A stretch of DNA of 35,849 nt from a virus, in the IMG/VR virus record IMGVR_UViG_3300046722_000050, positions 1 to 35,849 of that record; one strand, 5' to 3'. Shown here piece by piece: positions 4,188 through 19,337 of the stretch; the first letter of the stretch is position 1; each line of letters opens with the position of its first letter. The position numbers and the translations under genes are program-made. The notes beneath the pieces are model-generated. The model saw only the letters and a list, made by a program, of their open reading frames with translations, was not told the origin of the DNA and made no database searches.

Positions 4188-4625
4188 CTAATACTCGATG
4201 GGCCTATAGCTTGTCGCATAGTCCAATTCGTTTCTCAATGCTTGATACGATGGCTGCGCGCATTCATTCACTAGCCATAGCGAACGGGGCATAGCCCTCT
4301 CGCGGCTCATGTGAACGTCGAAGTGGGAGCAGCCGAATGGCGCGACTGGATGCACCTTGCAGCGATCATCGTCGCCTAGGAACACGCACCGTCCACGCCT
4401 CATCTTAGGCGTGATGCTTCCCACTCTAACCGTCTTACCATCTACTCTCACTAGCGCTCCCGGACTGGCGCAGAAGTGCCGCTTGGCGTCCTCCACGCTC
4501 TCGCCTAGGTGCGCCGCTATGCGCTCCAAGTCACCGCCCGCTATCGGGCCTGCCTGTCGCTTGCAGCACTTGACGCACTCGCTACAGGCGCATGTGGTGC
4601 GCTTGAATTCATCGGGTGCGCTCAT
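4188..4625 (-). CDS. CxxCxxCC-type (YkgJ-like) cysteine-cluster protein
   Basis: A 145-residue protein with C-x-C-x2-C-x2-CC near the N-terminus (CACSECVKCC) and a second group GRCVFLGDDDRCKVHPVAPFGCSHF. This is the pattern of the putative Fe/Zn-chelating CxxCxxCC family (YkgJ type). That family is widespread and biochemically poorly defined; it probably binds a metal or Fe-S centre. Here it sits between the helicase and a small zinc-ribbon gene, with the next upstream stop overlapping its start in an ATGA. The role in the phage is unknown. Confidence 0.75.
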   Translation of the reverse strand: MSAPDEFKRTTCACSECVKCCKRQAGPIAGGDLERIAAHLGESVEDAKRHFCASPGALVRVDGKTVRVGSITPKMRRGRCVFLGDDDRCKVHPVAPFGCSHFDVHMSRERAMPRSLWLVNECAQPSYQALRNELDYATSYRPIEY

Positions 4626-6853: not shown

Positions 6854-7522
6854 CTACCAAGGTCTCAGTGATACCACGGCTGGCGGCAACATGCTGTGCA
6901 TGGGCTGCGCCAGATAGTAGGCGTGCATGTGGCGGCTCACTCGGGTGATCGTGTAGCGGTAGTGACTCCATAGGAGCTTATTGAAGCAGCGAATGTAGTC
7001 GCCATAGCTCACTACAGGCTCGTTGAAAAAGTCGCTGTATAGATGGCGGAACCATCCTATGCGTCTGAGCGCCGTGTCGCTCCAGATGAGATACTTGGGC
7101 GCTTTCGGTCGCTGCATGACCTTAGCTACGGGCCAGTCGCGCTCAAAGAAGCGCACGTTCATGGTAGGGAAGTCGAGCACTACCATGTCTGCATCTACCG
7201 TGCCCATGAGTTCCTTAGCGTCACCTATGCCTACGGTAGCTCGACCATCGAAGGCGCTGTGTAGCTGCCTAACACAGTCGGGGTCTATGTCGTAGATGGT
7301 GTGCGCGCTCGGTCTGAGCGTTTCCTGCACGATGGTAGCGAAGATGCCTACGCCACCGAAATACTCCACGACGCTAAGCCCTTGTGGGAAGTCGCGGATG
7401 ATGTGCATGAAGCAGGCCTCGTTCATCTTCGACGCCTCGCGGTCGATGTGGGCGAAGTGACCGCCAGCGCCACCCTCGACTAAGGGCAGAGGCCAGCGGC
7501 CACCTACAAGTAGCTCCCTCAC
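6854..7522 (-). CDS. Rossmann-fold SAM-dependent methyltransferase-like protein
   Basis: A 222-residue protein starting with GTG in a GTGA overlap with the upstream stop codon. The core has SAM motif I LSVVEYFGGVGIFATIV (about 49-65), then acidic strand-2 end TIYDIDPDCVRQL, GIGDAKELM, and motif-IV-like VDADMVVLDFPTMN. This matches a class I methyltransferase, with DFPT where DNA adenine enzymes have (D/N)PP(Y/F). It lacks the PC dipeptide of cytosine-C5 enzymes and has no target-recognition domain. The substrate is unknown; it might act on DNA, a modified base or a small molecule. The first 30 residues are less ordered, and an internal Met (MNEACFMHII) is an alternative start. Confidence 0.6.
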   Translation of the reverse strand: MRELLVGGRWPLPLVEGGAGGHFAHIDREASKMNEACFMHIIRDFPQGLSVVEYFGGVGIFATIVQETLRPSAHTIYDIDPDCVRQLHSAFDGRATVGIGDAKELMGTVDADMVVLDFPTMNVRFFERDWPVAKVMQRPKAPKYLIWSDTALRRIGWFRHLYSDFFNEPVVSYGDYIRCFNKLLWSHYRYTITRVSRHMHAYYLAQPMHSMLPPAVVSLRPW

Positions 7523-8594: not shown

Positions 8595-8939
8595 TTAGAT
8601 GAGACTAAGGATGAGGCGCTTAGCTGTCGCTGGGCTAGTTAGTCTGACTGACTGCCCGCCGCTCGATAGGTAATCCATCGTGCCTTGCGTCGTGTTAGGC
8701 ACGACTGAGCCGATGCGTTGGCCATCGAAGATGACCTCAGCCGACTCGCCATAGGACTCCATCTCGCGCTCCACTTTACCGAACGGGCCTAAGGCCTCCT
8801 GTAGCTCGGCATACATGGCTTTGCGCGTGTCATCGAGTAGCTTCGCATCGTCCTCACCGAAGTCGAGGAAGCCATCTGACGCTGCAATGGCGAGTAGCTT
8901 TTTGCTGACGCGCCCATCTAACTTGCTGAATGTGTTCAT
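8595..8939 (-). CDS. Hypothetical 114-residue protein
   Basis: I take the start at MNTFSKLDGRVSKKLLAIAA because AGGAGACACCT stands directly before this ATG; the longer frame runs through repeat copy D. The protein is helical/acidic (DGFLDFGEDDAKLLDDTRKA, AELQEALGPFGKVEREM) followed by a beta-rich end with EVIFDGQRIGSVVPN. It is one of seven genes sharing the same initiation cassette. The function is unknown. Confidence 0.7.
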   Translation of the reverse strand: MNTFSKLDGRVSKKLLAIAASDGFLDFGEDDAKLLDDTRKAMYAELQEALGPFGKVEREMESYGESAEVIFDGQRIGSVVPNTTQGTMDYLSSGGQSVRLTSPATAKRLILSLI

Positions 8940-8974
8940 AGGTGTCTCCTGTGTTGTTGGTTTACTGCGGGTGA

Positions 8975-9105
8975 AATTCGGGGTCTTGATCAGCGCGAGG
9001 ATGGCCCGCGCCGTTGCGAGGATGCCGTTCTGCGCGTCTTTCCGTTGATCTTGCCCAATCGGGCAGGACGGTGGGTTGAACGCTGAGACGGCAATCCTCG
9101 CGTGA
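8975..9105 (-). repeat. Dispersed repeat, copy D
   Basis: In minus orientation: CGCGAGGATTGCCG at the left, then GAACGGCATCCTCGCAACG, then a spacer, then GATCAAGACCCCGAA at the right. Copies C (34031-34168) and E (19191-19322) have the same right half, including the 15-nt GCATCCTCGCAACG block and TCA(A)GACCC. It lies just upstream of the ribosome site of the 114-residue gene. Confidence 0.7.
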
Positions 9106-9116
9106 TTTAGGCCCAT

Positions 9117-9437
9117 TCAGGCGTAATGCGCGAATGGGAACACGTCTTGCATTAGCTTGTGGAAGCGAGGCCAGTGGTAGTGTTCCTCGATCCACGGCGC
9201 AAGCCTCAAGCCGTAGAATGGGAGCCAGTCTTTAGTGAACTGCTCGCCATACATCCTCATGTGATCGGCGTCGAGCACTAGCTCGATAACGTCCTTACGT
9301 GGCATCTCAGATAGGCCAGCGTTGGCCCATAGGGAGTTAATCATGTCCTGCCCTATGGTCTGCCATGTGCGCTGGCAGGCCCGTTTGAACCTATCGAACT
9401 CATCGGGTGTTAGCCCAAGATACTTATCGTTTTCCAT
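9117..9437 (-). CDS. Hypothetical 106-residue protein
   Basis: It starts MENDKYLGLTPDEFDRFKRA after GAAAGGTTACA. An all-helical protein, acidic and aromatic (QTIGQDMINSLWANAG, PRKDVIELVLDADHMRM, WIEEHYHWPRFHKLM). The fold suggests a compact helical bundle. The start overlaps the stop of the upstream zinc-ribbon gene by 14 bp. The function is unknown. Confidence 0.7.
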   Translation of the reverse strand: MENDKYLGLTPDEFDRFKRACQRTWQTIGQDMINSLWANAGLSEMPRKDVIELVLDADHMRMYGEQFTKDWLPFYGLRLAPWIEEHYHWPRFHKLMQDVFPFAHYA

Positions 9438-9681
9438 TTGTAACCTTTCGTGTTGGTGGGTAGTAGCCACGGTCAGTGGGCTTCCGCACTAAGCATGGAT
9501 GCGAGTGCGCCGCGCCACCGAGTGGCCGATTGGCTGGCAGCACCATCGCGGCCAGTCGTGTTTTGAAGTCCGCTATGGACTCTGGTTGGCAAAGCCACCA
9601 GCGCCTAGCGCCACTGCCGCCTAGATGCGACAGGCGCGGAGCCATAGTGACCTTACAGTTAGGACAGACGTTAGGCTTCAT
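9424..9681 (-). CDS. Small zinc-ribbon protein, 85 residues
   Basis: It starts MKPNVCPNCKVTMAPRL: a C-x2-C knuckle, with WWLCQPES as a possible second half (only one Cys), so the zinc site may be incomplete or use His. The C-terminal part contains AAHSHPC and is basic. It is probably a small nucleic-acid-binding protein; the family is not recognised. Confidence 0.6.
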   Translation of the reverse strand: MKPNVCPNCKVTMAPRLSHLGGSGARRWWLCQPESIADFKTRLAAMVLPANRPLGGAAHSHPCLVRKPTDRGYYPPTRKVTNGKR

Positions 9682-9684
9682 GTG

Positions 9685-9954
9685 TTACTTGCCTCCCGTC
9701 CAGCTGGCGAAGATGTTCGCCACGACTGGCGAGACCTTGGTAGAACCATGGCCTAAGCCGCCGTCTTGAACCTTCACATACCAGCCATACTCGCGGCACT
9801 CGATGTGGCCGCTCTTTTCGAGCGTGCGCAGGTGTCGGCGCTGCGATGGTAGAATGTCCTTTGCCTGAATTCCCGGCACCGCCCTAATGGTAGCGATGCA
9901 AGCCGTTTGCTGCCTAGCGTCTCGCGTGGCGAGTTGCTCTGCTGTTAGTTTCAT
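9685..9954 (-). CDS. Putative winged-helix protein, 89 residues
   Basis: It starts after the AGGAGACACCT signal. Sequence order: helix (TAEQLATRDARQQTACIATI), AVPGIQAKDILPSQRRHLRTLEKSGHI (two helices, quoted as AVPGIQAKDIL and SQRRHLRTLEKSGHI), then a basic beta-hairpin ECREYGWYVKVQD. This is the layout of a small winged helix with a recognition helix ending SGHI and a wing, as in phage regulators. It may control the small-gene cluster. Confidence 0.55.
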   Translation of the reverse strand: MKLTAEQLATRDARQQTACIATIRAVPGIQAKDILPSQRRHLRTLEKSGHIECREYGWYVKVQDGGLGHGSTKVSPVVANIFASWTGGK

Positions 9955-9971
9955 AGGTGTCTCCTTGTGTT

Positions 9972-10017
9972 AGTGGGCTGAATTGCCCGCTCTGGCGACG
10001 CCCTGTGGTGCCGCCAG
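9972..10017. promoter_or_regulatory. Two spacer hairpins
   Basis: AGTGGGC/GCCCGCT (loop TGAATT) and CTGGCG/CGCCAG lie back to back in the 70-bp gap between the winged-helix gene and the zinc-finger gene upstream of it. In the transcript both stems precede the AGGAGACACC ribosome site and may act as processing or attenuation structures. No U-run follows. Confidence 0.45.
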
Positions 10018-10024
10018 TTTCGGG

Positions 10025-10294
10025 TTACTCTTGCCGTAGTAGGTTGAGATGGGCCGCGTGTAGGTCATCGCGTTCGCGGTTGAGAGCGTCGATCCTCCGA
10101 TCAATCGCCTTCATCCTACGCTTGAGGCCCGCCCGCCCGCCGTGCTTATCCGATAGCTTCATCCAGTAGTCGTAACTGGCTTGAGCCATCGAGCGCTTCT
10201 CGCCCGTAGCCACTGGGCAAAAGCCCATATGGTTATAGGGGTAGCGCTGGCCGCACTGCGGGCACTGATGCATCTCCTTAGTGACGCGGATCAT
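10025..10294 (-). CDS. Zinc-finger protein with helical tail, 89 residues
   Basis: The N-terminus MIRVTKEMHQCPQCGQRYPY holds a C-x2-C knuckle and a second Cys in MGFCPVA. The C-terminal half is a long, charged helix (LKRRMKAIDRRIDALNRERDD) likely to form a coiled coil. It starts in an ATGA overlap with the upstream gene. Probably a DNA- or RNA-binding dimer; the family is unknown. Confidence 0.7.
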   Translation of the reverse strand: MIRVTKEMHQCPQCGQRYPYNHMGFCPVATGEKRSMAQASYDYWMKLSDKHGGRAGLKRRMKAIDRRIDALNRERDDLHAAHLNLLRQE

Positions 10295-10524
10295 ATGCCA
10301 CCTCCCACTAACGTCCTAAGGTGGACTGTGGCGTCCTTGGCGGCTATCTCCCGAGTGACGCACATCTGTTTGTGGTCGGCTGGGCTACGGCCCTTCCAAT
10401 ACATCTCATTGTGGTTGTTAGCGGTGTTGACGAGATAGCTTTCCATCTCGCGGACAATGCTAACCAGCTTGCTCTTAGGCAGGCCATCGAGGAATTTGCG
10501 GGTGATTATTGCTTTGCTTTTCAT
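10291..10524 (-). CDS. Hypothetical 77-residue protein
   Basis: It starts MKSKAIITRKFLDGLPKSK with the AGGAGACACCT signal. It is basic and helical (LVSIVREMESYLVNTANNHN) with MYWKGRSPADHKQMCVTREI in the middle. No motif is recognised. The stop overlaps the zinc-finger gene's start. Confidence 0.7.
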   Translation of the reverse strand: MKSKAIITRKFLDGLPKSKLVSIVREMESYLVNTANNHNEMYWKGRSPADHKQMCVTREIAAKDATVHLRTLVGGGI

Positions 10525-10544
10525 AGGTGTCTCCTTGTTACCGA

Positions 10545-10604
10545 CTGACCTTCATGGTCAGCGGATGGAAGGGCAGCGCCCTGTGGCCTGCCCTCTTAAT
10601 CCGC
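10545..10604. promoter_or_regulatory. Structured spacer with nested hairpins
   Basis: CTGACC/GGTCAG with a TTCAT loop is followed by a nested pair: GCGGAT/ATCCGC enclosing GGGCAG/CTGCCC. The whole gap between two genes is used in base pairing. In the transcript these structures come right before the AGGAGACACC site of the 77-residue gene, so an effect on translation or mRNA decay is plausible. Confidence 0.5.
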
Positions 10605-10795
10605 TAAACGTCCACAGCGAACGACCAATTGGAGCGATAGTGATTCCAGTGCCACAGTGGGCACTCCCATCGGCGGTCCGCTGGATGACCGTAGATGTCG
10701 AGGATGCTGGTCGCTGTAGCTCGATAGACTTGATCGCCTATGAGCCAGTAATGCCACCTATCGCTGGTAGCTATGAGCTTAGCTGGGAGCGCCAT
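10604..10795 (-). CDS. Hypothetical 63-residue Trp-rich protein
   Basis: MALPAKLIATSDRWHYWLIG followed by a short beta-rich domain with an unusually high content of Trp, Tyr and His (RRWECPLWHWNHYRSNWSF). It overlaps the end of the upstream gene by 17 bp, so translation may be coupled. The composition suggests a compact beta fold, possibly carbohydrate- or nucleotide-binding, but there is no recognisable family. Confidence 0.55.
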   Translation of the reverse strand: MALPAKLIATSDRWHYWLIGDQVYRATATSILDIYGHPADRRWECPLWHWNHYRSNWSFAVDV

Positions 10796-11165
10796 CGGCC
10801 ATCCTCCTCGCTAAGTCGAGCGTCGATGGGCAAACCTCACCGCGCACCATGAGAGCGATGTGCCTCAGATGCGACAGCCGCCTAGCCTTATCGGCGATCA
10901 GCTGGTATGACGAGGCCACTTGGATGTGGCCACGCGGCCCGATGAAGAAATGCCCGCCATCGCCGCAGATGATTGCGCGTGGCGAATACTGGTCGCAGTC
11001 GATCCGCTTGACCTTGACGGTCATATTCAGATGCGTCTCGAAGCCTAACGGGACAATCTCAGATGAGATGTGGTAGTTACCCTTATCGTAGCTCACGCTG
11101 TTCTCATAGAAGCGCATGATGCGGTCTATAGCGCGTTGCTGTGACTTATTGATTTTGGTTTCCAT
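10779..11165 (-). CDS. Hypothetical 128-residue protein
   Basis: It starts METKINKSQQRAIDRIMRFY after AGGAGACACCT. A helical N-terminus is followed by a beta-rich core (GNYHISSEIVPLGFETHLNM, VKVKRIDCDQYSPRAIICG, GHFFIGPRGHIQVAS). The fold looks like a small alpha+beta domain. The N-terminal KSQQRAIDRI pattern is common in phage-encoded unknowns. There are no catalytic residues I can name. Confidence 0.7.
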   Translation of the reverse strand: METKINKSQQRAIDRIMRFYENSVSYDKGNYHISSEIVPLGFETHLNMTVKVKRIDCDQYSPRAIICGDGGHFFIGPRGHIQVASSYQLIADKARRLSHLRHIALMVRGEVCPSTLDLARRMADGAPS

Positions 11166-11175
11166 AGGTGTCTCC

Positions 11176-11421
11176 TTATGAGTTGATTAGTCCAAGCACC
11201 ATCTGGAGCGACCTAACGTCGCCAGCGGTGCACCGATGCCCGAAGGCGTTTCGGTAGATGTTGTGAGCCAGTGCCCAACGAGTGTCCTCATCGGCCTCGT
11301 CGAGTAGGAACTCGGTCACGGCTCCATCGCCGTAGCTAACGCTCGATTGGTCGTTGGCCTCATCGTGCGCTATGTGAACGTATTTACCACCGATTTCGAT
11401 GGTGATGTTTTGTAGTGTCAT
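11176..11421 (-). CDS. Hypothetical 81-residue protein
   Basis: It starts MTLQNITIEIGGKYVHIAHD after AGGAGACACCT. It has beta strands (NITIEIGGKYVHI, SSVSYGDGAV) then an acidic helix (TEFLLDEADEDTRWALAHNI). It is separated from the next gene downstream (128 residues) by only 10 bp, just enough for its ribosome site. The function is unknown. Confidence 0.7.
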   Translation of the reverse strand: MTLQNITIEIGGKYVHIAHDEANDQSSVSYGDGAVTEFLLDEADEDTRWALAHNIYRNAFGHRCTAGDVRSLQMVLGLINS

Positions 11422-11497
11422 AGGTGTCTCCTTGTTACTGCTTCCTTCATTGGAAGATCAGATCTAGCGGCCACCGCAGTGACCGCCGCATCTAACC

Positions 11498-11695
11498 TCA
11501 GTGTTTGGCGGGTATCGCCGCCAGCGTCCGCCAGATGGCCAGCGCCTCACGCGCTACCATGCTGTGGCAGATGCAGCCCCACGCCGTATCGGCGAAGCGA
11601 CTCATCCCGCTGCATGGCATCCATCCATGGCAGCGCGGACAAGCCGCCGCATAGCCAGCGTGGTGAGCGTTGGCCTCATTAACCATGTTATCCAT
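11498..11695 (-). CDS. Small Cys/His-rich protein, 65 residues
   Basis: MDNMVNEANAHHAGYAAACP begins the protein; C-x2-C (CPRC), a further C in MPCSG and C-x-C (GCICH) make a likely zinc site. The start is set by AGGAGACACCT directly upstream. Upstream of it lies the 122-bp inverted-repeat element at 11715-11836. The function is unknown. Confidence 0.65.
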   Translation of the reverse strand: MDNMVNEANAHHAGYAAACPRCHGWMPCSGMSRFADTAWGCICHSMVAREALAIWRTLAAIPAKH

Positions 11696-11714
11696 AGGTG
11701 TCTCCTTTCTTGAA

Positions 11715-11836
11715 CGGTAGATCGACCACAGCTAGCGGCTTCGCTGGTCTGCTAGGCCCGCACTGGCGGATATTTCCATGGGCTCTCCCTGTCGGGTCGG
11801 CCTCCATAGTGCTAACTAACTGCGGTCGATCTACCG
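11715..11836. repeat. 122-bp element bounded by perfect 13-bp inverted repeats
   Basis: CGGTAGATCGACC at the left and GGTCGATCTACCG at the right are exact inverted complements 96 bp apart. No target-site duplication is visible outside. A further stable hairpin (ACTGGTCGCC with GGTGGCCAGT on the minus strand, loop GATG) lies between this element and the next upstream gene, at about 11853-11877. It may be an RNA switch or leader ahead of the 65-residue gene, or the remnant of a small mobile element. The 196-bp gap holds no ORF I can support. Confidence 0.6.
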
Positions 11837-11891
11837 CTCTGTGTTACTAACTAAAGCTACTGGCCACCCATCGGCGACCAGTGTGTCTTAG

Positions 11892-12311
11892 CTAAGTAAG
11901 TTCATCCATCCCGCTCGCAGCGACCTTGTCGGTCACCTCAAACTTGCCTATCTCGTCGCCCTTGTGAGTGACTTTGACGTTGAGCGTGTAGCCGTAGTAG
12001 CTTTTTGCATAGCGGCCACCGCCCTCCTCTAGCTGGTCGCACCCATCCTCCTCGGCCTCGAAGTCGTCGCTGCTACCATCGGGGTTAGCCAGCGCGAGCT
12101 CGTCCATCTTCTTAGCGATCTCGGCGGGTAGCTCAGCGTCGGTGTTGAACGTGTATTCTTTCATCTCGTCGCCACAGCAGCTGCTGTTTCGGACGATGCG
12201 AACTTCGACGGCCACCGATTTGTTTTCGGCGTCGAACTCGACTGAATTCACCTCTGGGTCTTGAAGCTCAAGGCCCGCGAATTTGTTACATGAGGGACAT
12301 AGCTGTGCCAT
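11892..12311 (-). CDS. Acidic zinc-ribbon-type protein, 139 residues
   Basis: The N-terminus MAQLCPSCNKFAGLEL has a C-x2-C knuckle, and RNSSCCGDEMKEY a second Cys pair, making a split zinc ribbon. The core is beta-rich (SVAVEVRIVRN, GYTLNVKVTHKGDEIGKFEV) and the middle is very acidic (SSDDFEAEEDGCDQLEEGGG). It could be a small DNA-mimic or transcription-associated factor; I see no named family. It starts after CAGGAGTATTAT and follows a spacer with four hairpins. Confidence 0.65.
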   Translation of the reverse strand: MAQLCPSCNKFAGLELQDPEVNSVEFDAENKSVAVEVRIVRNSSCCGDEMKEYTFNTDAELPAEIAKKMDELALANPDGSSDDFEAEEDGCDQLEEGGGRYAKSYYGYTLNVKVTHKGDEIGKFEVTDKVAASGMDELT

Positions 12312-12328
12312 ATAATACTCCTGTGTTG

Positions 12329-12447
12329 GTGGAGCTTGATTGCTCCACGCTGACCGCCGTGACGATCAGCGTGGAACACCCTCGGGTTGCCCCGAGGATG
12401 CCCGCCTTAGTGCTTTTGGGTCGTGGGCTGACTGATCGTCCACGACC
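12329..12447. promoter_or_regulatory. Leader with four hairpins, two of them mutually exclusive
   Basis: Stems: GTGGAGC/GCTCCAC (12329-12348), CCACGCTGA/TCAGCGTGG (12345-12374), CCTCGGG/CCCGAGG (12380-12397) and GGTCGTGG/CCACGACC (12419-12447). The first two share bases 12345-12348, so they cannot form together. This is the architecture of an attenuator or switch, located in the leader of the 139-residue gene. No ligand class is recognised. Confidence 0.5.
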
Positions 12448-12459
12448 GCTCACGCGGCC

Positions 12460-12864
12460 CTACCTCAGCGATTCTAGCACCTTGAAGGCGCTGCCCCTCT
12501 CGGCTACATGGCGCTTGGCCGATTTCAGGTAGTAGTCCAGTGGCTCATCAAGGCGCTCATGGATGTGAACGAGGATGTCGTGGGCCTTGACGCCGTGGTT
12601 CAAGTAGATGGCGACCGCCTTAGCGAACGCCTTCACTGACCGACTGTTTTTGCTATCGTTGCAGCGTTTGCACGCTGTGATGAGATTGTGTTCATCATTG
12701 GTGCCGCCATGGCAGCGGCTAACAATGTGGTCGAGACAGAGCGAAGCGCCCTGCTCGACTGACTGACCACAGTAGGCGCACGCCAGCCCATCGCGAAGAT
12801 AGATGGCGAGGCGCTTAACCTGACTGATCCAATTCATACCGTGTTTGTTACCGTGTGGTTTCAT
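12460..12864 (-). CDS. HNH endonuclease
   Basis: A 134-residue protein with a complete HNH motif: CAYCGQSV (first zinc Cys pair), CLDHIVSRCHGG (DH catalytic pair), NDEHNLITACKRCNDSKNS (Asn, His and second Cys pair). It resembles small phage HNH nucleases and restriction-type HNH proteins (McrA-like) and may nick phage or host DNA. The start MKPHGNKHGMNW is set by the AGGAGACACCT signal; the longer frame would include 16 codons of the upstream His-rich gene. The stand-alone size and position among small genes fit a homing-type or host-takeover nuclease. Confidence 0.8.
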   Translation of the reverse strand: MKPHGNKHGMNWISQVKRLAIYLRDGLACAYCGQSVEQGASLCLDHIVSRCHGGTNDEHNLITACKRCNDSKNSRSVKAFAKAVAIYLNHGVKAHDILVHIHERLDEPLDYYLKSAKRHVAERGSAFKVLESLR

Positions 12865-12874
12865 AGGTGTCTCC

Positions 12875-12988
12875 TTAGTGCATCCATCCGTGAACCAGAT
12901 GGGCGATCTCAATGATCGTGTGAAGCGTGTGGTGGTGGTGGTGGGCCTTGTGAATGGCCATGTGAGCGAACTTGATTACGTGTTTCAT
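12875..12988 (-). CDS. His-rich 37-residue mini-protein (not in standard ORF size range)
   Basis: ATG AAA CAC to TAA encodes MKHVIKFAHMAIHKAHHHHH and then TLHTIIEIAHLVHGWMH: 12 histidines in 37 residues, with an i/i+4-like spacing that would put them on faces of one or two helices. Its TAA sits directly before the AGGAGACACC of the HNH gene, and AGTAACACG precedes the ATG as it does at the tape-measure gene. A metal-binding or zinc/nickel-loading role is conceivable, but the ribosome site is weak. Confidence 0.45.
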   Translation of the reverse strand: MKHVIKFAHMAIHKAHHHHHTLHTIIEIAHLVHGWMH

Positions 12989-13920
12989 CGTGTTACTAGG
13001 CGGCGACATATCCCGTCGCCATTGGTGTTAACTACCATCGTTAATCGATGGCAGAGATGGTAGCAGCCTTAGGCGCTGTCGCCGTAGCTGCTACCGTGCT
13101 CTGCTATCTGAGCCTCCGCGTCATTCCGCGACTGACATCCTCAGCGATCCGAGTGGGCCTGCCCTTACGCGCTCCCTCCGCACCGTCGTGTGCCTCATTG
13201 GGTTTGCCTGTGAGCTACCTTTCATCCTGAGCGACTACGTGTCGCGACCTACGCTATACACCGCGTGTCGTCCCTCCCAGCGCCGTGTGGCGTTGAGGTT
13301 GTCCGTTAGTGGGCATCCCACTGTGCCGGATAGACTTGGCCCGTTTTATTAGCGTCGCGTAGCGGCGACGAGTGGCTCCCGACCGTTACCGATCGAGTTT
13401 GGTAAAGCGGCAATCACTATAGCCGCGTATGAACTACTCATCTGCACTACAGCGACCCCAACGACACATACGCCACGATTGACTGTCATCGTGGCGCGAT
13501 TCGTCGAGCGGCTGACCCTTGGGCTAACGCCGTTATTCACGGGGCGCTTTTTCAGGTTTGCTTCGGTTTCGTTCATCAGGCCATTACTAAAGCGCCTAAA
13601 CAAACAAAAGAAAACAACTATTTTTGCTGAGGGCAAAATACTTTGTAAAGCGCACGTCCTTAGAAAGTTACGCTATCACGATGGGATTCCATCGGGTTTT
13701 AGATAGGGTGGCGTCACGGACTCCATTCTACGCGGCCATGGTGAAAAGTTGCCTCTCGTTGATTTGCCCCATCGAGTGCCCGATAGAAGTGCCATCGAGG
13801 AGGATCAACCGTGGCCGCAGGCAACTTACGGCACACGCCCATCTGCACTATGAGCCAGCCGTTTGCATAGTGACGATGGACAGGCCGCAGCGCCCATCGT
13901 CGATGAGGCCCGCGCCCGCG
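12989..13920. other. About 0.9 kb without a convincing gene, rich in inverted repeats
   Basis: Minus-strand frames here are short or compositionally unconvincing (a 95-codon frame at 13349-13636 has no ribosome site). The sequence holds many perfect hairpins: GGCGAC/GTCGCC (about 13002-13020), CCATCG/CGATGG (about 13033-13049), GGTAGCAGC/GCTGCTACC (about 13057-13094), AGTGGG/CCCACT (about 13307-13321), CGTCGC/GCGACG (about 13354-13371) and CGCCACGAT/ATCGTGGCG (13471-13496). An A/T-rich patch at about 13590-13650 is the most AT-rich stretch of this region and could hold a promoter for the leftward small-gene operon or a replication or packaging site. Confidence 0.5.
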
Positions 13921-14445
13921 CTATCGGCCTATGGAGTCGGCTATCTGGTCGGCGTTGCGCTCAAGCTCACCAGCGGTCTCATTGGACAGCTCGATGGCCT
14001 TGTAGCGTGCGAGGATGCCCGCTATCAGCGTGCGCCTACTCTGCGTGAAGGATCGTGGCTGAGTGTCGCCGCGAGCCTTATGGCGTCGATCTCGCTCGTC
14101 CTCGGAGCACACGATGTGGAACAACTGAAGCTCGTCGTATGTGACCGACGATAGGAAATTGTGGCGGGTCAGCCTGTCGCCCTCAAAGGCCACCGTCGCC
14201 GTAGCTGGGCGCGTCTTGAGGAATTTGATGGCATCGCCATAGACCGCCATCGAGAGTTTGTCCGTGCCCGCGAAGATTTCATGGTCGTTGTAGAGGCCGA
14301 GCACATAGCGGTCGCGTGTGTAGGCCCGCCCGCGAAGCAGCCCGAATTTGAACTTCATATACTCCAGTCCAAGCCGCCTCAAGATGGAGCGCATGAGCGC
14401 TGTTTTACCTGTCGCTGGCTCGCCGATTATGCCAATTAGCTTCAT
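13921..14445 (-). CDS. P-loop kinase of the putative base-modification cassette
   Basis: A 174-residue P-loop NTPase starting MKLIGIIGEPATGKTALMRS; Walker A is GEPATGKT at residues 8-15. Further acidic and Arg motifs (VAFEGDRLTRHNFL; CSEDERDRRHKARGD as lid) look like a small nucleoside/nucleotide kinase. In thymidine-hypermodifying phages a P-loop kinase (5-hmdU DNA kinase) phosphorylates the hydroxymethyl group before amine addition; I infer the same role from the position directly after the transferase-type gene. It lacks the helical domain fused in the known kinases. Palindrome P3 and a GCCTC-containing hairpin lie just before its start. Confidence 0.65.
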   Translation of the reverse strand: MKLIGIIGEPATGKTALMRSILRRLGLEYMKFKFGLLRGRAYTRDRYVLGLYNDHEIFAGTDKLSMAVYGDAIKFLKTRPATATVAFEGDRLTRHNFLSSVTYDELQLFHIVCSEDERDRRHKARGDTQPRSFTQSRRTLIAGILARYKAIELSNETAGELERNADQIADSIGR

Positions 14446-14474: not shown

Positions 14475-14506
14475 CGCCAATGAACTTGAATTCAAGTTAG
14501 TTGGCG
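14475..14506. repeat. Palindrome P3
   Basis: Arms CGCCAATGAACTTGAA and TTCAAGTTAGTTGGCG, 16 nt each, two mismatches, centred on GAATTC. As in P1, the stop codon of the upstream gene (GCC AAC TAA) lies inside one arm. A short run GAGGCACTTACGAATATG in the minus strand follows, and is shared with the leader after P2. Confidence 0.8.
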
Positions 14507-15414
14507 CTTCCATTGTGTGAGTTGGCCTCCTTTAGATGCTCGGGCTTGAAGGTTTCAGCGCGGTATGCCCACAGGACGCTCCAATCTACGCCCTCAGTCA
14601 CGTGTGCCTGTAGGTGCGCTATCTCGTCGTGCTGGCGGTTGATGTAGTAGCCCGCCCATCGTTTGCCTAGGTGGTATTTTTTGTAGGCACACAGGGTAGT
14701 CTCCATGTTCCACATGTTATTCGCTGGGTCGAGCGCCTTGAGGTCGCGCAGGCCCGCGTCCAGCGACACCTGTAGCATCTTCATGTCGGTCTGTTTGATC
14801 TGATGACCGTCCTCATGGTTGCTTAGATCGGGCCTGCCTATCGCCAGCGCTAGTCCGTTGCGGCATGACTGAGCCTCACGCACGTTCATCGTGGGCGGTT
14901 CCATCGGGAAGCCCGTGACCACATGGACAGCCTCGGTGTAAAGCCACAGGCCGAAACGTCCCATCTGAAACCACTGTGAGGCGTCCTTGCTGACTACGTC
15001 ATAGGTGGCGAGCGGGTCGCGTGGCACTTCTCTCGATCGCATCCACATCTCCTGGCTGAGCGGGCGCACCGCGTCCGCGTAGGAGCGTAGCATCTGAACC
15101 CACTGATTGCGGGAGCGCACCCATCGGCGGTCAGTCTGGAACAAGACCTTTTCGCGGTTGAGTTTCCACCATCGCGCCGCCCTATCGAAGTCAACGTTTT
15201 CCCAGTCCGGAAACTCGTTGTAGATGTAGAACGTGGTCGCGCCGCAGTAACACGTTGAGTAGATGTAAGCCAGCCAGTAGCGTTGCTCCGTGTTAAGCTC
15301 GTAGCGTTCGCAGATGTAACGAAGCATTGAGTAGCTAGGGTCAACGTCACCTATGGCCCGACTGTAGGTGTGGTAGTCCACATAGCTCATCTTGTCGCTG
15401 TAACTAGCCCACAT
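14497..15414 (-). CDS. Alpha-glutamyl/putrescinyl-thymine pyrophosphorylase-type protein (amino acid:DNA transferase family)
   Basis: A 305-residue protein. The start MWASYSDKMSYVDYHTYSRA overlaps the end of the amidotransferase gene by 11 bp and follows AGGGACG; an upstream in-frame extension of 34 codons is unlikely. The all-helical, Trp/Tyr-rich pattern PSYSMLRYICERYELNTEQR, YWLAYIYSTCYCGATTFYIY, EFPDWENVDFDRAARWWKLN, DRRWVRSRNQW is what I know from the aGPT-Pplase/ADDT clade, whose members replace the phosphorylated hydroxymethyl of thymine in DNA with an amine or amino acid (putrescine, glutamate, serine or glycine in known phages). Recognised from sequence pattern only. Here the nucleophile is unknown. 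It lies between a kinase and a glutamine amidotransferase. Confidence 0.65.
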   Translation of the reverse strand: MWASYSDKMSYVDYHTYSRAIGDVDPSYSMLRYICERYELNTEQRYWLAYIYSTCYCGATTFYIYNEFPDWENVDFDRAARWWKLNREKVLFQTDRRWVRSRNQWVQMLRSYADAVRPLSQEMWMRSREVPRDPLATYDVVSKDASQWFQMGRFGLWLYTEAVHVVTGFPMEPPTMNVREAQSCRNGLALAIGRPDLSNHEDGHQIKQTDMKMLQVSLDAGLRDLKALDPANNMWNMETTLCAYKKYHLGKRWAGYYINRQHDEIAHLQAHVTEGVDWSVLWAYRAETFKPEHLKEANSHNGSAN

Positions 15415-16042
15415 GGTAGGTCGTCCCTGCTTCGATGGACTTAGGCAGCTTGAAGCCTGAGCGCCTGAATATGTCCTGTGTTGAGCCGATGTAGTGGGCG
15501 CTGGCCTCGCGCACATGGTAGAGCGGGCGCTGGCGATTGCGGAGCGCCAGTAGCTCGCCGTGGTAGAGCATGACGCCCGCGAAGCTAAACGTGCCTAGCC
15601 TAACCCACTGCTCCCAGTCCTCGCCGTCTAACACCTTGCGCACGAAGATTTCTCCATCGTTATCCGTCTCGGGCTTGAAGCCGAACTCCTTGCCCCACTG
15701 CTCCTTAGTGGTCATACGGATGACGCCATTGAACGCCATAGCTACGTCACCTATGACGATGGGCTGGTTAGCGTCATCGTCGTGCCAGTCGCCGCTGGTC
15801 GAGTAACGGCAATGCGCGATGAGGCTTAGATGGCGGCCCACATACTCGAGAGCGAGCGCGGCCAGATACTCTCGCGCCTGCTCGCGAATTAGGAACTTGT
15901 CGCACCCGAGCGCGCCATCCGCATGCACGTGCGCGACTCCGAACGAGTGCAGCCCGCGTATCTTACTCGCATCGAAAAGCGCAAGCAGCCGCGCAGCCGC
16001 TCGCTCGCCGCCCTTGCCTGAGTAACCTATGACCGCGCACAT
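15404..16042 (-). CDS. Stand-alone class II glutamine amidotransferase
   Basis: A 212-residue Ntn-hydrolase-type GATase: Met removal would expose Cys2 of MCAVIGYSGKGG as the nucleophile. Other family marks are HCRYSTSGD (Arg79), ANQP (92-94), FNGVIRM (Asn105-Gly106), TDNDGE (127-131) and LRNRQRPLY. It liberates ammonia from glutamine. Unlike asparagine synthetase or GlmS, no synthetase domain is fused, so the ammonia must go to a partner, most likely a cassette neighbour that aminates a base or activates an amino acid. It overlaps the GNAT gene by 16 bp and the transferase gene by 11 bp. CG-rich palindromic patches inside it (about 15838-15930) resemble the R repeat weakly. Confidence 0.8.
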   Translation of the reverse strand: MCAVIGYSGKGGERAAARLLALFDASKIRGLHSFGVAHVHADGALGCDKFLIREQAREYLAALALEYVGRHLSLIAHCRYSTSGDWHDDDANQPIVIGDVAMAFNGVIRMTTKEQWGKEFGFKPETDNDGEIFVRKVLDGEDWEQWVRLGTFSFAGVMLYHGELLALRNRQRPLYHVREASAHYIGSTQDIFRRSGFKLPKSIEAGTTYHVG

Positions 16043-16665
16043 AAAAGGAAGTCATAATCATGGTCGGGTTGCCAGTTGCGTGCAAGGATTTCATGGTGCA
16101 ATTCTTCACCGCTCATGGCGGTAACACGACTGGTAACACCGCGAGCGCCGATGGGCGTCTTGTCGGTCGGGAACTTAGCCGCCTGATGCGGGAGTGGCGA
16201 GTCGATCTGGATCTCGCCGCCCTCACAGAAGCCCCACACCTGATGCCCTAGCGACCAGTGTAGGCGTAGCCCTAGGTAGCTGCCTGCCTTTGACTTGATG
16301 CGGGCGCAGCCTAGGAACGCACAGTGTTGTAACATGGCCCGCGACAGTTGGAGCGCGTAGCCTTGGCGACGATGGGACGGTGTCGTGTAGGCGAGCGTCC
16401 AGTTGCAGTAGGGTTCCCATATGTTCTTTTTGCGCCGCCCGATGTGGATGGTGCCAAAGCTCAGTGGGCCTTCTGGCGAGTCCAAGGCGAACACAGCCGC
16501 CTTGCGAAACAACTCCACTCCAATGTCGCCTAGGCAGTCATAGCTGTCCTTAGGATAGCCGCCTCTACGCTCGCGTAATGCACGCGCCATCGTCTCGCAC
16601 TCGGATGGGAGCAGGAGCTCGCGGACTCTCGCGTGCTCGATCGAGTTGCATGTGTGCACGCTCAT
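16027..16665 (-). CDS. GNAT-family N-acetyltransferase of the cassette
   Basis: A 212-residue protein; I start it at MSVHTCNSIEHARVREL because a longer frame (GTG) runs through the R3 repeat. GNAT motif A is LAYTTPSHRRQGYALQLSRA with the acetyl-CoA loop RRQGYA (99-104); IKSKAGSYLGLRLHWSLGH is motif B-like. It probably acylates an amine, such as an aminated base made by the neighbours; acetyltransferases also occur in described thymidine-hypermodification clusters. The C-terminus overlaps the amidotransferase start by 16 bp. No ribosome site is seen in front of the ATG. Confidence 0.75.
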   Translation of the reverse strand: MSVHTCNSIEHARVRELLLPSECETMARALRERRGGYPKDSYDCLGDIGVELFRKAAVFALDSPEGPLSFGTIHIGRRKKNIWEPYCNWTLAYTTPSHRRQGYALQLSRAMLQHCAFLGCARIKSKAGSYLGLRLHWSLGHQVWGFCEGGEIQIDSPLPHQAAKFPTDKTPIGARGVTSRVTAMSGEELHHEILARNWQPDHDYDFLLCARS

Positions 16666-16810
16666 GGGCGAGCGCGTCTGTTTCCTAAACGCGAGAGCGC
16701 GTAGAGCGCGAATATCGCGAGCGTGAGTAACGCGGATGCATACGCCCACTCGAATACGCGAGTGACGTGCACGCGAGCGAGTCGCTCGAGCGCGTTAGGA
16801 ATTAGCTCCC
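16629..16810. repeat. CG-rich palindromic repeat R3 at the TET/GNAT junction
   Basis: Two blocks: 16629-16668 (GCTCGATCGAG, GCATGTGTGCACGC, ATGGG), nearly identical to the right end of R1 at 30751-30781, and 16757-16810 (in minus orientation GCTAATTCCTAACGCGCTCG), matching R2 at 8560-8580. The last codons of the dioxygenase gene (Ala-Asn-Ser-stop) and the first codons of the GNAT gene are encoded inside the two blocks. The 129-bp gap between the stop and start codons is thus filled by repeat sequence. Confidence 0.55.
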
Positions 16811-17880
16811 TTGGATACATGGCTCTCGATGGGAGGACGTCTGAGCGCCTTAGCGCGGGCGAGTTCTTCATCGGCGCTGCCACAGCGCTGCATCTTCTCG
16901 CGATAGTAGAACACCAGCGATACCCGCTCAAACATCCCATGGTTGCCTTTCATGGGCGTGTTACCGTGCCACTCATGCACGTCCGCACAGAGGACACAGC
17001 CAGTCCTCATGTCTAACGCCACGCGATACTTAGGGAACACGAAGTAGCAGCCCTCGTAGCGGCCACGCCTGAGGCACGACATGACGCCGAAGCCCTCCTT
17101 CAAGTCGCCCACGTCCTTATGCACCGCCGTCTGGAAGTTGCGGTTGACGGTCACTGTGGTGAAGCAGGTGTCCGCGATGTAGAAGTCGGCGCTGGTGGCG
17201 CGGATTAGATCAGACTGCGCTAGGTAGCGGTCAGGGACTAAGGCCGCGAACTCCCTGTCTATCCGCTGGATGAAGGGCATGACAGCCGCAAAGCGCCTCG
17301 GGTGCGCTAGGTTGTAGGCAGTCAGGCGACAGTAGGGAAAGCGCGGATTCCTATCGAAGAAGCCCACTATGCCGCTGTTGACTAGCTTGGCGACGTTCGT
17401 GTTACTCAGTGTGCCATCGTGTTTGATAGCCTGCGCTCTCGTCGGGCTGACCAGCTTGATGCCTATGCCGCCTCGCTCCTTGGCGATCTTCACTAGCTCC
17501 TCCTCTGAGTTGATCTGCCCTGCCGCGTAGCCACGGTTGCCAGTGGGGTTGGCCGCGTCCTTCCATACAGGGAAGGCCGTTAGGCAGTCGGCCTCCTCTA
17601 TGACGTTCTGGCGAAACCTGCACAGCAACGAGCCATCGGGCTTGTAAATGTCCACGTCATCGGTGTGGAGCGTATCGTAGGCATCCTCGCCAAGTAGATG
17701 ACCAGCAAGAGCGTCGGTCTGCTCGTCGTTGAGCGCGTTGCGTTTCAATCGCACGACCTTGGGCGGTGCCTCAGTCTTGTGGCGATAGTCGAGTTTAAGC
17801 GACGGTGGTAGCTCGGTGCTCCGTGGTATGCTTAGCGTGGCCATTGGTGCGTTTGGTTTGTAGTTGGCTGAATGTAGCAT
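16795..17880 (-). CDS. TET/JBP-type 2-oxoglutarate/Fe(II) dioxygenase
   Basis: A 361-residue protein. The C-terminal part carries the TET/JBP signature: RNFQTAVHKDVGDLKEGFGV (HxD at H254/D256), GRYEGCYFVFPKYRVALDMR, GCVLCADVHEWHGNTP (distal His H302 or H305) and ERVSLVFYYREKM (2-oxoglutarate-binding Arg319). This is close to trypanosome JBP, which hydroxylates the methyl of thymine in DNA, and to TET, which oxidises 5-methylcytosine. The N-terminal about 200 residues include SDLIRATSADFYIADTCF, typical of phage members. The start may be the second Met (MATLSIPR, residue 13). It overlaps the Gp88-like gene by 50-86 bp and ends in repeat R3. I infer it supplies 5-hydroxymethyl-pyrimidine for the kinase/transferase pair downstream. 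Confidence 0.85.
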   Translation of the reverse strand: MLHSANYKPNAPMATLSIPRSTELPPSLKLDYRHKTEAPPKVVRLKRNALNDEQTDALAGHLLGEDAYDTLHTDDVDIYKPDGSLLCRFRQNVIEEADCLTAFPVWKDAANPTGNRGYAAGQINSEEELVKIAKERGGIGIKLVSPTRAQAIKHDGTLSNTNVAKLVNSGIVGFFDRNPRFPYCRLTAYNLAHPRRFAAVMPFIQRIDREFAALVPDRYLAQSDLIRATSADFYIADTCFTTVTVNRNFQTAVHKDVGDLKEGFGVMSCLRRGRYEGCYFVFPKYRVALDMRTGCVLCADVHEWHGNTPMKGNHGMFERVSLVFYYREKMQRCGSADEELARAKALRRPPIESHVSKGANS

Positions 17881-18550
17881 CGCCCTGCTTTTTGCGAAAC
17901 ATCGGGATGCGGTTAGCGACTAAGCCTATGTGCTTGGGCGCGTAGATGGCGAACAGGTCTGAGGCTTCGCGGTTCTCATAGCCGGCAGCGATAGCAGCCT
18001 CCTTAGTCGGGAACACGTCCGCGTGGCGGTCATGTGCGCGATCTACGAGCGCGTCCTCCTTGCCGCCCAGTGAGTATATCCAGTCGAAGTTGGCGGGCGG
18101 GTCAGGCTCGACCAGTCGCTTGAACTTACTGACCTCCTTAGTGTAGGCGTAGAAGGTCGCCCATGGCGAGCGCCTGATGATGCGTAGCCATGCGCTCAGA
18201 TAGGCGTCGCTGAAGAAGTCGCCGCTGTCGTGTATGCGCACGTGTCGCCCACGATAGCGCGGGTCGCGTAGCTCGCACGTCATGCGTGTCTCCCACCATG
18301 GCAGATGATCGAGCACCATGAGCAGGTTGCGCTCATGGGCCGCTCTCACCTCGGGTAGTAGGAAGTTACCGCTCCTCGCATAGCACAGCTGGGCGCACAC
18401 TCCGGCGTTAGGGCAGACATTGAAGTTTCGGCCGTCGCTCAGTCGAAGCGCCCATGCTGGTAGCGTCCAGTTGTAAGCGCCATCGCGCTTGAGCAGGCTA
18501 TTCTGTGTGAGCAGCCACTTGGGCAGTAGCTTTTCCATTGCGCTTACCAT
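17795..18550 (-). CDS. Gp88-like Cys-cluster protein
   Basis: A 251-residue protein (start Met1 or MEKLLPKWLL, residue 5). It has the Cys cluster C46-x5-C52-x3-C56 (NVCPNAGVCAQLCYARSGN), VRIHDSGDFFSDAYLSAWLR (105-124) and FYAYTKEVSKF, then YSLGGKEDALVDRAHDRHAD and IGLVANRI. This is the pattern of a phage family often annotated Gp88 after mycobacteriophage genes; its biochemistry is unknown to me. The Cys triad recalls a metal or Fe-S site, and HDSGDF may be catalytic or metal-binding. Between ParB and the dioxygenase, it is a candidate modification enzyme or specificity factor. The last 35 residues are low complexity and overlap the dioxygenase gene. Confidence 0.65.
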   Translation of the reverse strand: MVSAMEKLLPKWLLTQNSLLKRDGAYNWTLPAWALRLSDGRNFNVCPNAGVCAQLCYARSGNFLLPEVRAAHERNLLMVLDHLPWWETRMTCELRDPRYRGRHVRIHDSGDFFSDAYLSAWLRIIRRSPWATFYAYTKEVSKFKRLVEPDPPANFDWIYSLGGKEDALVDRAHDRHADVFPTKEAAIAAGYENREASDLFAIYAPKHIGLVANRIPMFRKKQGDATFSQLQTKRTNGHAKHTTEHRATTVA

Positions 18551-19337
18551 AGCACTCCGCTACCGCTTTAACGACTGTGTCGGTGATGTTAGTGATCTCC
18601 CAGTCTTCGCCTAGGACGCGCACTTGCTCCATGAACTCGGGCAGAGTCTCCACTGTGAGGAACAGCTGCACCATCCGTATGTGAGCGGGTATGGTCTCGT
18701 CGCCCTCGCCAGCGATAGTCGTCTCTGCATCGGTGTCAGGCGTCATCTTAGTCAGCATGGCCTCTAGCTCCTTAGCTGAGAAGCCAGTGAGCGGTAGCTC
18801 ATAGCCTTGGCCATCCAACTCGGTGAGGATTTCAGATAGCGCTGGCAAATCCCAGTCGCCACCGTGTTTGTTGGCCGCGATCATGGCCGCGTTCTCGGTG
18901 GCCTCGTCCCACTTGACCTCACGATAGACGAAGCGTTCGCCGCGATACAGCACGACGCCCTCCGCGACGGTGCCGCGTGGCGTGGGCTGAGGGAAGCGCC
19001 TGAGTATCTCGACTGGCAGGTTGCCGAGGATCTTCACGCGCTGGTGGCCGCCTACGAGGTGGCCTGTGTTGAGGTTCACGACGAGTCCACTGAGGTCGCC
19101 ATACGCGGCCATAGCTTTCTTCAGCGCCTCCAGTTGTTCGTCAGTGATTTTGCGCGGGTTGCGCGGATTGGCCGAAAACTGCGAAAGCCGTATTTCGGGG
19201 TCTGATTGACGTTTCGGAGGTGTCTCCGCGTTGCGAGGATGCCCTGTAGCACGTTTGTTTGGGGCGTCCGCTACCTTGACCCTACCCGATTTGGCGGACT
19301 CGTTCTCGGGCATCGTCGTTGCTTTTGGTGGTTTCAT
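18498..19337 (-). CDS. ParB/Srx-domain protein of the modification cassette
   Basis: A 279-residue protein. Residues about 46-200 are a ParB-like domain of the type found beside DNA methylases: IRLSQFSANPRNPRKITDEQ, LEALKKAMAAYGDLSGLVVN, GHLVGGHQRVKIL with the box GGHQR (96-100), then KWDEATENAAMIAANKHGGD. ParB/Srx folds bind or hydrolyse nucleotides, so it may be a helper NTPase or site-selection factor in base modification. The ATG is in an ATGA overlap with the tail-fibre gene. The first 45 or so residues are disordered, Lys/Pro/Asn-rich, and are encoded by repeat copy E. The C-terminal part (FLTVETLPEFMEQVRVL) overlaps the Gp88-like gene. Confidence 0.8.
   Translation of the reverse strand: MKPPKATTMPENESAKSGRVKVADAPNKRATGHPRNAETPPKRQSDPEIRLSQFSANPRNPRKITDEQLEALKKAMAAYGDLSGLVVNLNTGHLVGGHQRVKILGNLPVEILRRFPQPTPRGTVAEGVVLYRGERFVYREVKWDEATENAAMIAANKHGGDWDLPALSEILTELDGQGYELPLTGFSAKELEAMLTKMTPDTDAETTIAGEGDETIPAHIRMVQLFLTVETLPEFMEQVRVLGEDWEITNITDTVVKAVAECYGKRNGKATAQVAAHTE
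19191..19322 (-). repeat. Dispersed repeat, copy E, inside the ParB-like gene
   Basis: In minus orientation GACGATGCCCGAGAACGAG at the left, then CAGGGCATCCTCGCAACGCG, then GGAGACACCTCCG and ATCAGACCCCGAAAT at the right. The blocks match copies C and D in order and spacing. It encodes about residues 6-49 of the ParB-like protein. The GGAGACACC in it is the ribosome-site sequence seen before seven other genes, so this part once looked like a spacer plus start region. Confidence 0.65.

Follow-up and report, generated by a model that had tools for sequence, protein, structure and literature searches.

Organization of the cassette

The window, a 35,849-base stretch that constitutes the entire virus record IMGVR_UViG_3300046722_000050, is a fragmentary myovirus genome carrying tail sheath, baseplate, tape measure, Erf, and helicase genes. 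Among the window proteins scanned, none was recognized as part of a head module or as a terminase or DNA polymerase. A putative metal-chelating domain protein with a CxxCxxCC motif (PF03692) is encoded at positions 4188–4625. The cassette analyzed here lies on the minus strand and reads, in transcription order, ParB-like protein, GP88-family protein, TET/JBP dioxygenase, GNAT-like acetyltransferase, glutamine amidotransferase-like protein (GAT), amino acid:DNA transferase (ADDT), and P-loop kinase. Adjacent genes overlap or sit no more than ~50 bases apart, which suggests an operon-like arrangement.

The first cassette gene (18498–19337, minus strand; phrog_620, E = 7e-29) encodes the ParB-like protein, presumed to be the DNA-site partner of the TET enzyme. 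Between it and the TET gene lies a GP88-family protein (17795–18550, minus strand; PF17338, E = 1.6e-54), which was seen in the window only, with no relative near any of the other TET loci examined. The dioxygenase itself, a 2-oxoglutarate/Fe(II) enzyme of 361 residues (16795–17880, minus strand), is followed by the GNAT-like acetyltransferase (16027–16749, minus strand; PF00583, E = 0.005, below cut-off). The latter gene has three matches among the TET loci, counting the window; the others are L026 and L027, and the L027 relative scores at the Pfam cut-off. Sequence comparison marks both the GP88-family protein and the acetyltransferase as accessory, the former being unconserved across related cassettes.

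The remaining three proteins form the more constant part of the cassette. The GAT (15404–16042, minus strand; PF13522, E = 2e-5, just below cut-off; phrog_14519, E = 2e-9) resembles class-II (Ntn, Cys2) glutamine amidotransferases and has the N-terminal Cys2; its gene is a conserved neighbor of ADDT, usually immediately upstream. The ADDT (14497–15516, minus strand; PF18724, E = 2e-22) scores 80.5 bits against a cut-off of 26.2, so that the window possesses the transferase of ViI-type thymidine hypermodification. The conserved final gene encodes a member of the P-loop nucleotide kinase 3 family (13921–14445, minus strand; PF18751, E = 1.7e-7, over cut-off), the proposed kinase of the hydroxymethyl group. 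An earlier note on this DNA had placed the oxygenase right beside the kinase and transferase genes. They do share one cassette, but the acetyltransferase and amidotransferase genes intervene, with ADDT starting 1.3 kb and the kinase 2.4 kb downstream.

Identity and predicted structure of the oxygenase

ORF 16795–17880 scores 81.1 bits on the Tet_JBP family (PF12851, E = 7e-23) against a cut-off of 34.9, upholding its earlier identification as a TET/JBP enzyme. The Fe(II) triad H254-x-D256…H305 and the 2-oxoglutarate residue Arg319 are present and invariant in all 147 of 147 relatives. An AlphaFold model of the protein (pLDDT 90) contains the double-stranded β-helix and matches TET2 (Z = 21.6), NgTet1 (19.6), CMD1 (19.5), and CcTet (17.9), whereas AlkB and FTO match at only Z ~13, well under the TETs. 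A phmmer search of the PDB with the single window protein returned no match, and a TET profile returned TET2 as the sole convincing one. Judged by sequence, catalytic residues, and predicted fold, the ORF encodes an intact TET/JBP enzyme. Its true start codon is probably further downstream than annotated, because the annotated start overlaps the GP88 gene by 86 bases and homologues begin near residue 40.

An Asp in NgTet1 and CMD1, or an Asn in TET2, bonds N4 of 5-methylcytosine (5mC) (PMC11040006). This position is Asp259 in the window enzyme, the same residue type as in NgTet1 and CMD1, and the position of TET2 His1904 is occupied by Arg327, as it is by Arg393 in CcTet. Pocket residues were considered as a source of thymine specificity and dropped: Asp259 and Arg327 resemble the residues of known 5mC enzymes and carry no thymine mark, so the pocket does not tell thymine from 5mC.

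Phage TET/JBP genes bear diverse GenBank labels. Those at L001 (7599–8507), L004 (5443–6789), L005 (3729–5165), and L007 (5410–6738) are named ‘SNF2 DNA repair protein’, ‘DnaJ chaperone’, or ‘queuine tRNA-ribosyltransferase’ (MementoMori).

Conservation of the cassette in phages

Scanning viral contigs with the single window TET protein gave no matches, and an 11-row TET alignment was too divergent as a query; a close 3-row alignment succeeded, and the TET-based sample comprises 80 TET relatives from IMG/VR. A ParB gene is located at most 400 bases upstream of TET in 68 of the 71 testable relatives. At 58 TET loci the sequence extends 3.5 kb downstream; ADDT is present at 38 of these, the kinase at 41, and the amidotransferase at 28, and 25 show the exact order ParB-TET-GAT-ADDT-kinase, the commonest. 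These neighborhoods identify ParB-TET-(GAT)-ADDT-kinase as a widespread predicted phage cassette. About one third of the TET relatives have no ADDT nearby, so members of this TET subfamily may take part in several different chemistries. At two loci, L200 (495–2464) and L204 (5203–6642), two tandem TET-like frames precede ADDT and the kinase, reflecting either a duplication or a split gene.

The closest long record, G003 (locus L028; 40.7 kb, incomplete), encodes a TET 69% and an ADDT 71% identical to those of the window. It has the window's tail genes plus portal, protease, and major head genes, and no terminase or polymerase was recognized among the large ORFs scanned. Neither a thymidylate synthase (TS) nor a C5-cytosine methyltransferase (C5-MTase) was found in its 40.7 kb.

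TET and divergent thymidylate synthase among ADDT carriers

Thymidine hypermodification is established to proceed via TS-made 5hmdU and a 5hmdU DNA kinase (PMC6449724, PMC7653180), with 5-hydroxymethyluracil (5hmU) on DNA being decorated through a phosphorylated intermediate (PMC6449724). A PF00303 search of the whole 35,849-base fragmentary record found no TS-like gene, in line with the earlier statement that the window holds no dUMP hydroxymethylase. None of 49 TET-bearing records contained a TS over cut-off, and our own TS profile, run on the DNA surrounding the 80 TET loci, matched at none of them. The window kinase belongs to PF18751 and not to the 5-hmdU DNA kinase families of the ViI type (PF18747/PF18748/PF18723). 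With no TS in the window or its 49 TET relatives, the window system is therefore better described as a variant of the ViI type than as a member.

Complete genomes display the same partition. Seven complete ADDT phages (Ackermannviridae and Vibrio phages) carry a divergent TS homologue scoring 40–59 bits and no TET. Two further complete genomes, those of mycobacteriophage VioletZ and Microbacterium phage MO526, have no TS; in both, a TET adjoins ADDT and a PF18751 kinase. The one exception is the complete Caulobacter phage Cr30, which combines TET and ADDT with a canonical TS (373 bits, PPCH type). An independent scan started from ADDT gave 98 new loci, 59 with TET only, 5 with TS only, none with both, and 34 with neither visible locally; a whole-record test of 50 of these loci found TS in 20, TET in 13, and both in none.

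Computed over 60 non-redundant ADDT tips, the Fisher p of the exclusion is 5e-7, a value to be read knowing that the tips are related and represent ~2 independent events. The ADDT tree places two TS-linked groups beside TET-linked relatives and needs at least two switches; with only about two independent switches seen, the exclusion counts are not independent either. The whole-record search missed the phiA8-29 TS in the IMG/VR copy of that phage and found it in another copy, and our own profile found it locally, so absences are not absolute. As far as gene content tells, ADDT carriers hold either a TET or a divergent TS, not both. The earlier proposal that the oxygenase acts in place of a dUMP hydroxymethylase thus gains good comparative support from this exclusion, from the two or more switches in the tree, and from the 5-hmdU kinases of TS-linked loci.

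Three GAT-ADDT-kinase cassettes in larger records, L122 (IMGVR_UViG_3300009085_000011, 9571–14389), L157, and L174, are accompanied by neither TET nor TS. In each, a radical-SAM-like gene follows the kinase, with Pfam matches below cut-off for L122 and L174; in L122 the gene also encodes, as a fusion, a TET-associated glycosyltransferase domain (PF20691). This gene is possibly a third front end, or it may belong to a different chemistry.

Residue and kinase signatures of TS-linked loci

Positions 147 and 177 of TS have been linked to modification (PMC8670742). Where E. coli TS has Asn177, the divergent TSs also have Asn, as expected of the dUMP type and not of the dCMP type, and Asn replaces His147; the Cr30 TS is canonical. 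TS-linked ADDT loci carry Pfam 5-hmdU DNA kinases, with HMUD2 in the Ackermannviridae and Vibrio phages. Of the eleven loci with the HMUDK helical domain, none is linked to TET, and an HMM of the PF18723 domain matches TS-linked ADDT records only. TS-linked and TET-linked loci have different kinase families, and the exchange therefore covers more than one gene.

Two records, G050 (locus L107) and G088 (locus L112), keep the window-like GAT-ADDT pair and have a TS and a 5-hmdU kinase instead of ParB-TET. Paired there with a TS and a 5-hmdU kinase, this ADDT branch presumably acts on 5hmU in G050 and G088 and, by parsimony, would do so in the window as well. The TS-linked record G050 also contains, at L111 (13697–16882), a tandem row of four ORFs that resemble one another and, by eye, glycosyltransferases, one of which was run against Pfam and gave no match, and an HD nucleotidase at 8847–9557.

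Thymine or cytosine as the substrate

Thymine already has a 5-methyl group, and cytosine would need a C5-MTase to acquire one. A PF00145 search found no such enzyme in the 35.8-kb fragmentary record, which agrees with the earlier note. A methyltransferase-like ORF at 6854–7522 was considered as a hidden C5-MTase and rejected: a six-frame scan revealed no PC(Q/N/D) motif, and its only match, to PF02475, is below cut-off. C5-MTases occur in 2 of the 49 TET-bearing viral records, one of which holds a full cassette (L082). They are absent from the complete VioletZ, MO526, Cr30, HTVC112P, and P12024L genomes and from all complete ADDT phages, whether of the TET or the TS type. Since cytosine would require an enzyme seen in just two of 49 TET records, thymine is favored, and the cytosine route, judged less likely from the outset, is disfavored by this near-absence, complete genomes included.

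Methylophilales phage Melnitz has a TET beside a C5-MTase together with a related kinase; at L006 (4010–8090; Methylophilales phage Melnitz-3), the C5-MTase, TET, and a PF18751-like kinase lie together, a possible set for kinase-based decoration of 5hmC. The kinase family was accordingly dropped as a marker of thymine, and part of the gene set can serve cytosine.

A cytosine pathway would have TET oxidize 5mC to 5hmC, and the kinase and ADDT decorate cytosine, the methyl group coming from the host or from a C5-MTase outside the fragment. Phage TETs studied by experiment reportedly act in cytosine hypermodification, a role said to have been established by Burke et al. 2021, and the Melnitz genes, the N4-bonding type of Asp259, and the full L082 cassette in a record with a C5-MTase all agree with such a pathway. 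It has to contend with the 47 TET records and five complete genomes that have no C5-MTase, with host methylation that would touch only host motif sites and do so across unrelated hosts, and with ADDT relatives that are paired with Asn177-type (dUMP) TS homologues and 5-hmdU kinases. We consider a cytosine substrate unlikely.

A dUMP hydroxymethylase might also be encoded outside the fragment and work in parallel, leaving TET to oxidize another methylated base or to over-oxidize 5hmU. Genes are indeed missing from the window, which has no head, terminase, or polymerase genes, and Cr30 does have both a TET and a TS; but the Cr30 enzyme is of the canonical PPCH type, a divergent TS and a TET never share one record, and the closest longer record, G003, has neither a TS nor a C5-MTase. 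Such parallel use seems quite improbable. It is more doubtful still that the cassette targets RNA, or a few regulatory sites picked by ParB, instead of thymines genome-wide, for although the near-constant ParB adjacency could mean site-specific modification, the ADDT relatives are part of genome-wide DNA hypermodification in ViI-like phages and the best fold matches of the oxygenase are DNA-acting TETs.

A proposed model for thymine hypermodification in finished DNA

We think it likely that the cassette makes hypermodified thymine in finished phage DNA, with TET generating 5hmU that is then phosphorylated and conjugated. The model builds on directly supported elements: the identities of the genes, the intact catalytic residues and fold of the oxygenase, the conserved cassette, the exclusion of divergent TS, and the near-absence of C5-MTases. 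First, the ParB-like protein would bring TET to phage DNA, the two acting together, and TET would hydroxylate the 5-methyl group of thymine in DNA, yielding 5hmU. The PF18751 kinase would then phosphorylate the hydroxymethyl group, ADDT would put an amino acid or amine in place of the phosphate, and the Cys2 glutamine amidotransferase and the GNAT-like protein would tailor the adduct. We infer each chemical step from the named protein families; thymine as the base, the order of steps, the role of ParB, and the final product are predictions too. TET would thereby do on the DNA polymer what, in ViI-like phages, a TS-family dUMP hydroxymethylase does on the nucleotide.

More broadly, we lean toward the view that a widespread phage lineage oxidizes thymine in finished DNA, with ParB choosing or loading the sites, and that one and the same ADDT can be served by either of two interchangeable front ends, a TET or a TS-type hydroxymethylase. 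If so, thymine hypermodification would need no altered nucleotide pool or special polymerase, and a phage could modify its DNA after replication and at chosen sites. Prokaryotic hydroxylases of thymine in DNA would offer an activity like that of JBP, which could be put to use in mapping and labeling, and would allow a direct test of a viral origin for JBP/TET chemistry. The model would also account for the common ParB-TET-ADDT cassette of cultured myco-, microbacterio-, and caulophages.

Comparison with known systems

To our knowledge, this would be the first thymine-oxidizing TET/JBP system of bacterial viruses. The general idea is already published and is not new: Iyer et al. 2013 reportedly predicted roles for phage TET/JBP enzymes in complex base modification, and the cluster of Rhodococcus phage Tonitrus has been annotated along similar lines. 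The present analysis adds that TET and divergent TS exclude and replace each other beside a common transferase, that C5-MTases are nearly absent, and that there are cultured phages suited to testing.

Thymidine hypermodification in Salmonella phage ViI and other Ackermannviridae, yielding 5-NeOmdU, is said to have been described by Lee et al. 2018. Those phages and the window both have a PF18724 ADDT near a P-loop kinase; theirs, however, is combined with a divergent TS acting at the dUMP level and a 5-hmdU kinase 2 (PF18747), with no TET, whereas the window has a PF18751 kinase and a TET.

Phage sets of C5-MTase, TET, and glycosyltransferase have been described (PMC12730594) and likewise employ a TET/JBP dioxygenase on polymer DNA. 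Neither a C5-MTase nor a glycosyltransferase was recognized in the window cassette, where the partners of TET are instead ADDT, the kinase, and the amidotransferase.

In a 2025 genome note, the ParB, tet-like JBP, aGPT-Pplase2, and 5-hmU kinase genes of Tonitrus were annotated as part of a five-gene thymidine hypermodification cluster (PMC11955845). The annotated Tonitrus cluster resembles the window in its ParB, tet-like JBP, and 5-hmU DNA kinase and in listing no TS, and differs in having aGPT-Pplase2 where the window has ADDT.

Kinetoplastid JBP1/JBP2 and base J offer a parallel beyond phages, with an enzyme of the TET/JBP family, proposed oxidation of thymine to 5hmU on DNA, and subsequent decoration. 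The phage cassette differs in the group that is attached, glucose in base J and, as predicted from the genes, an amino acid in the window.
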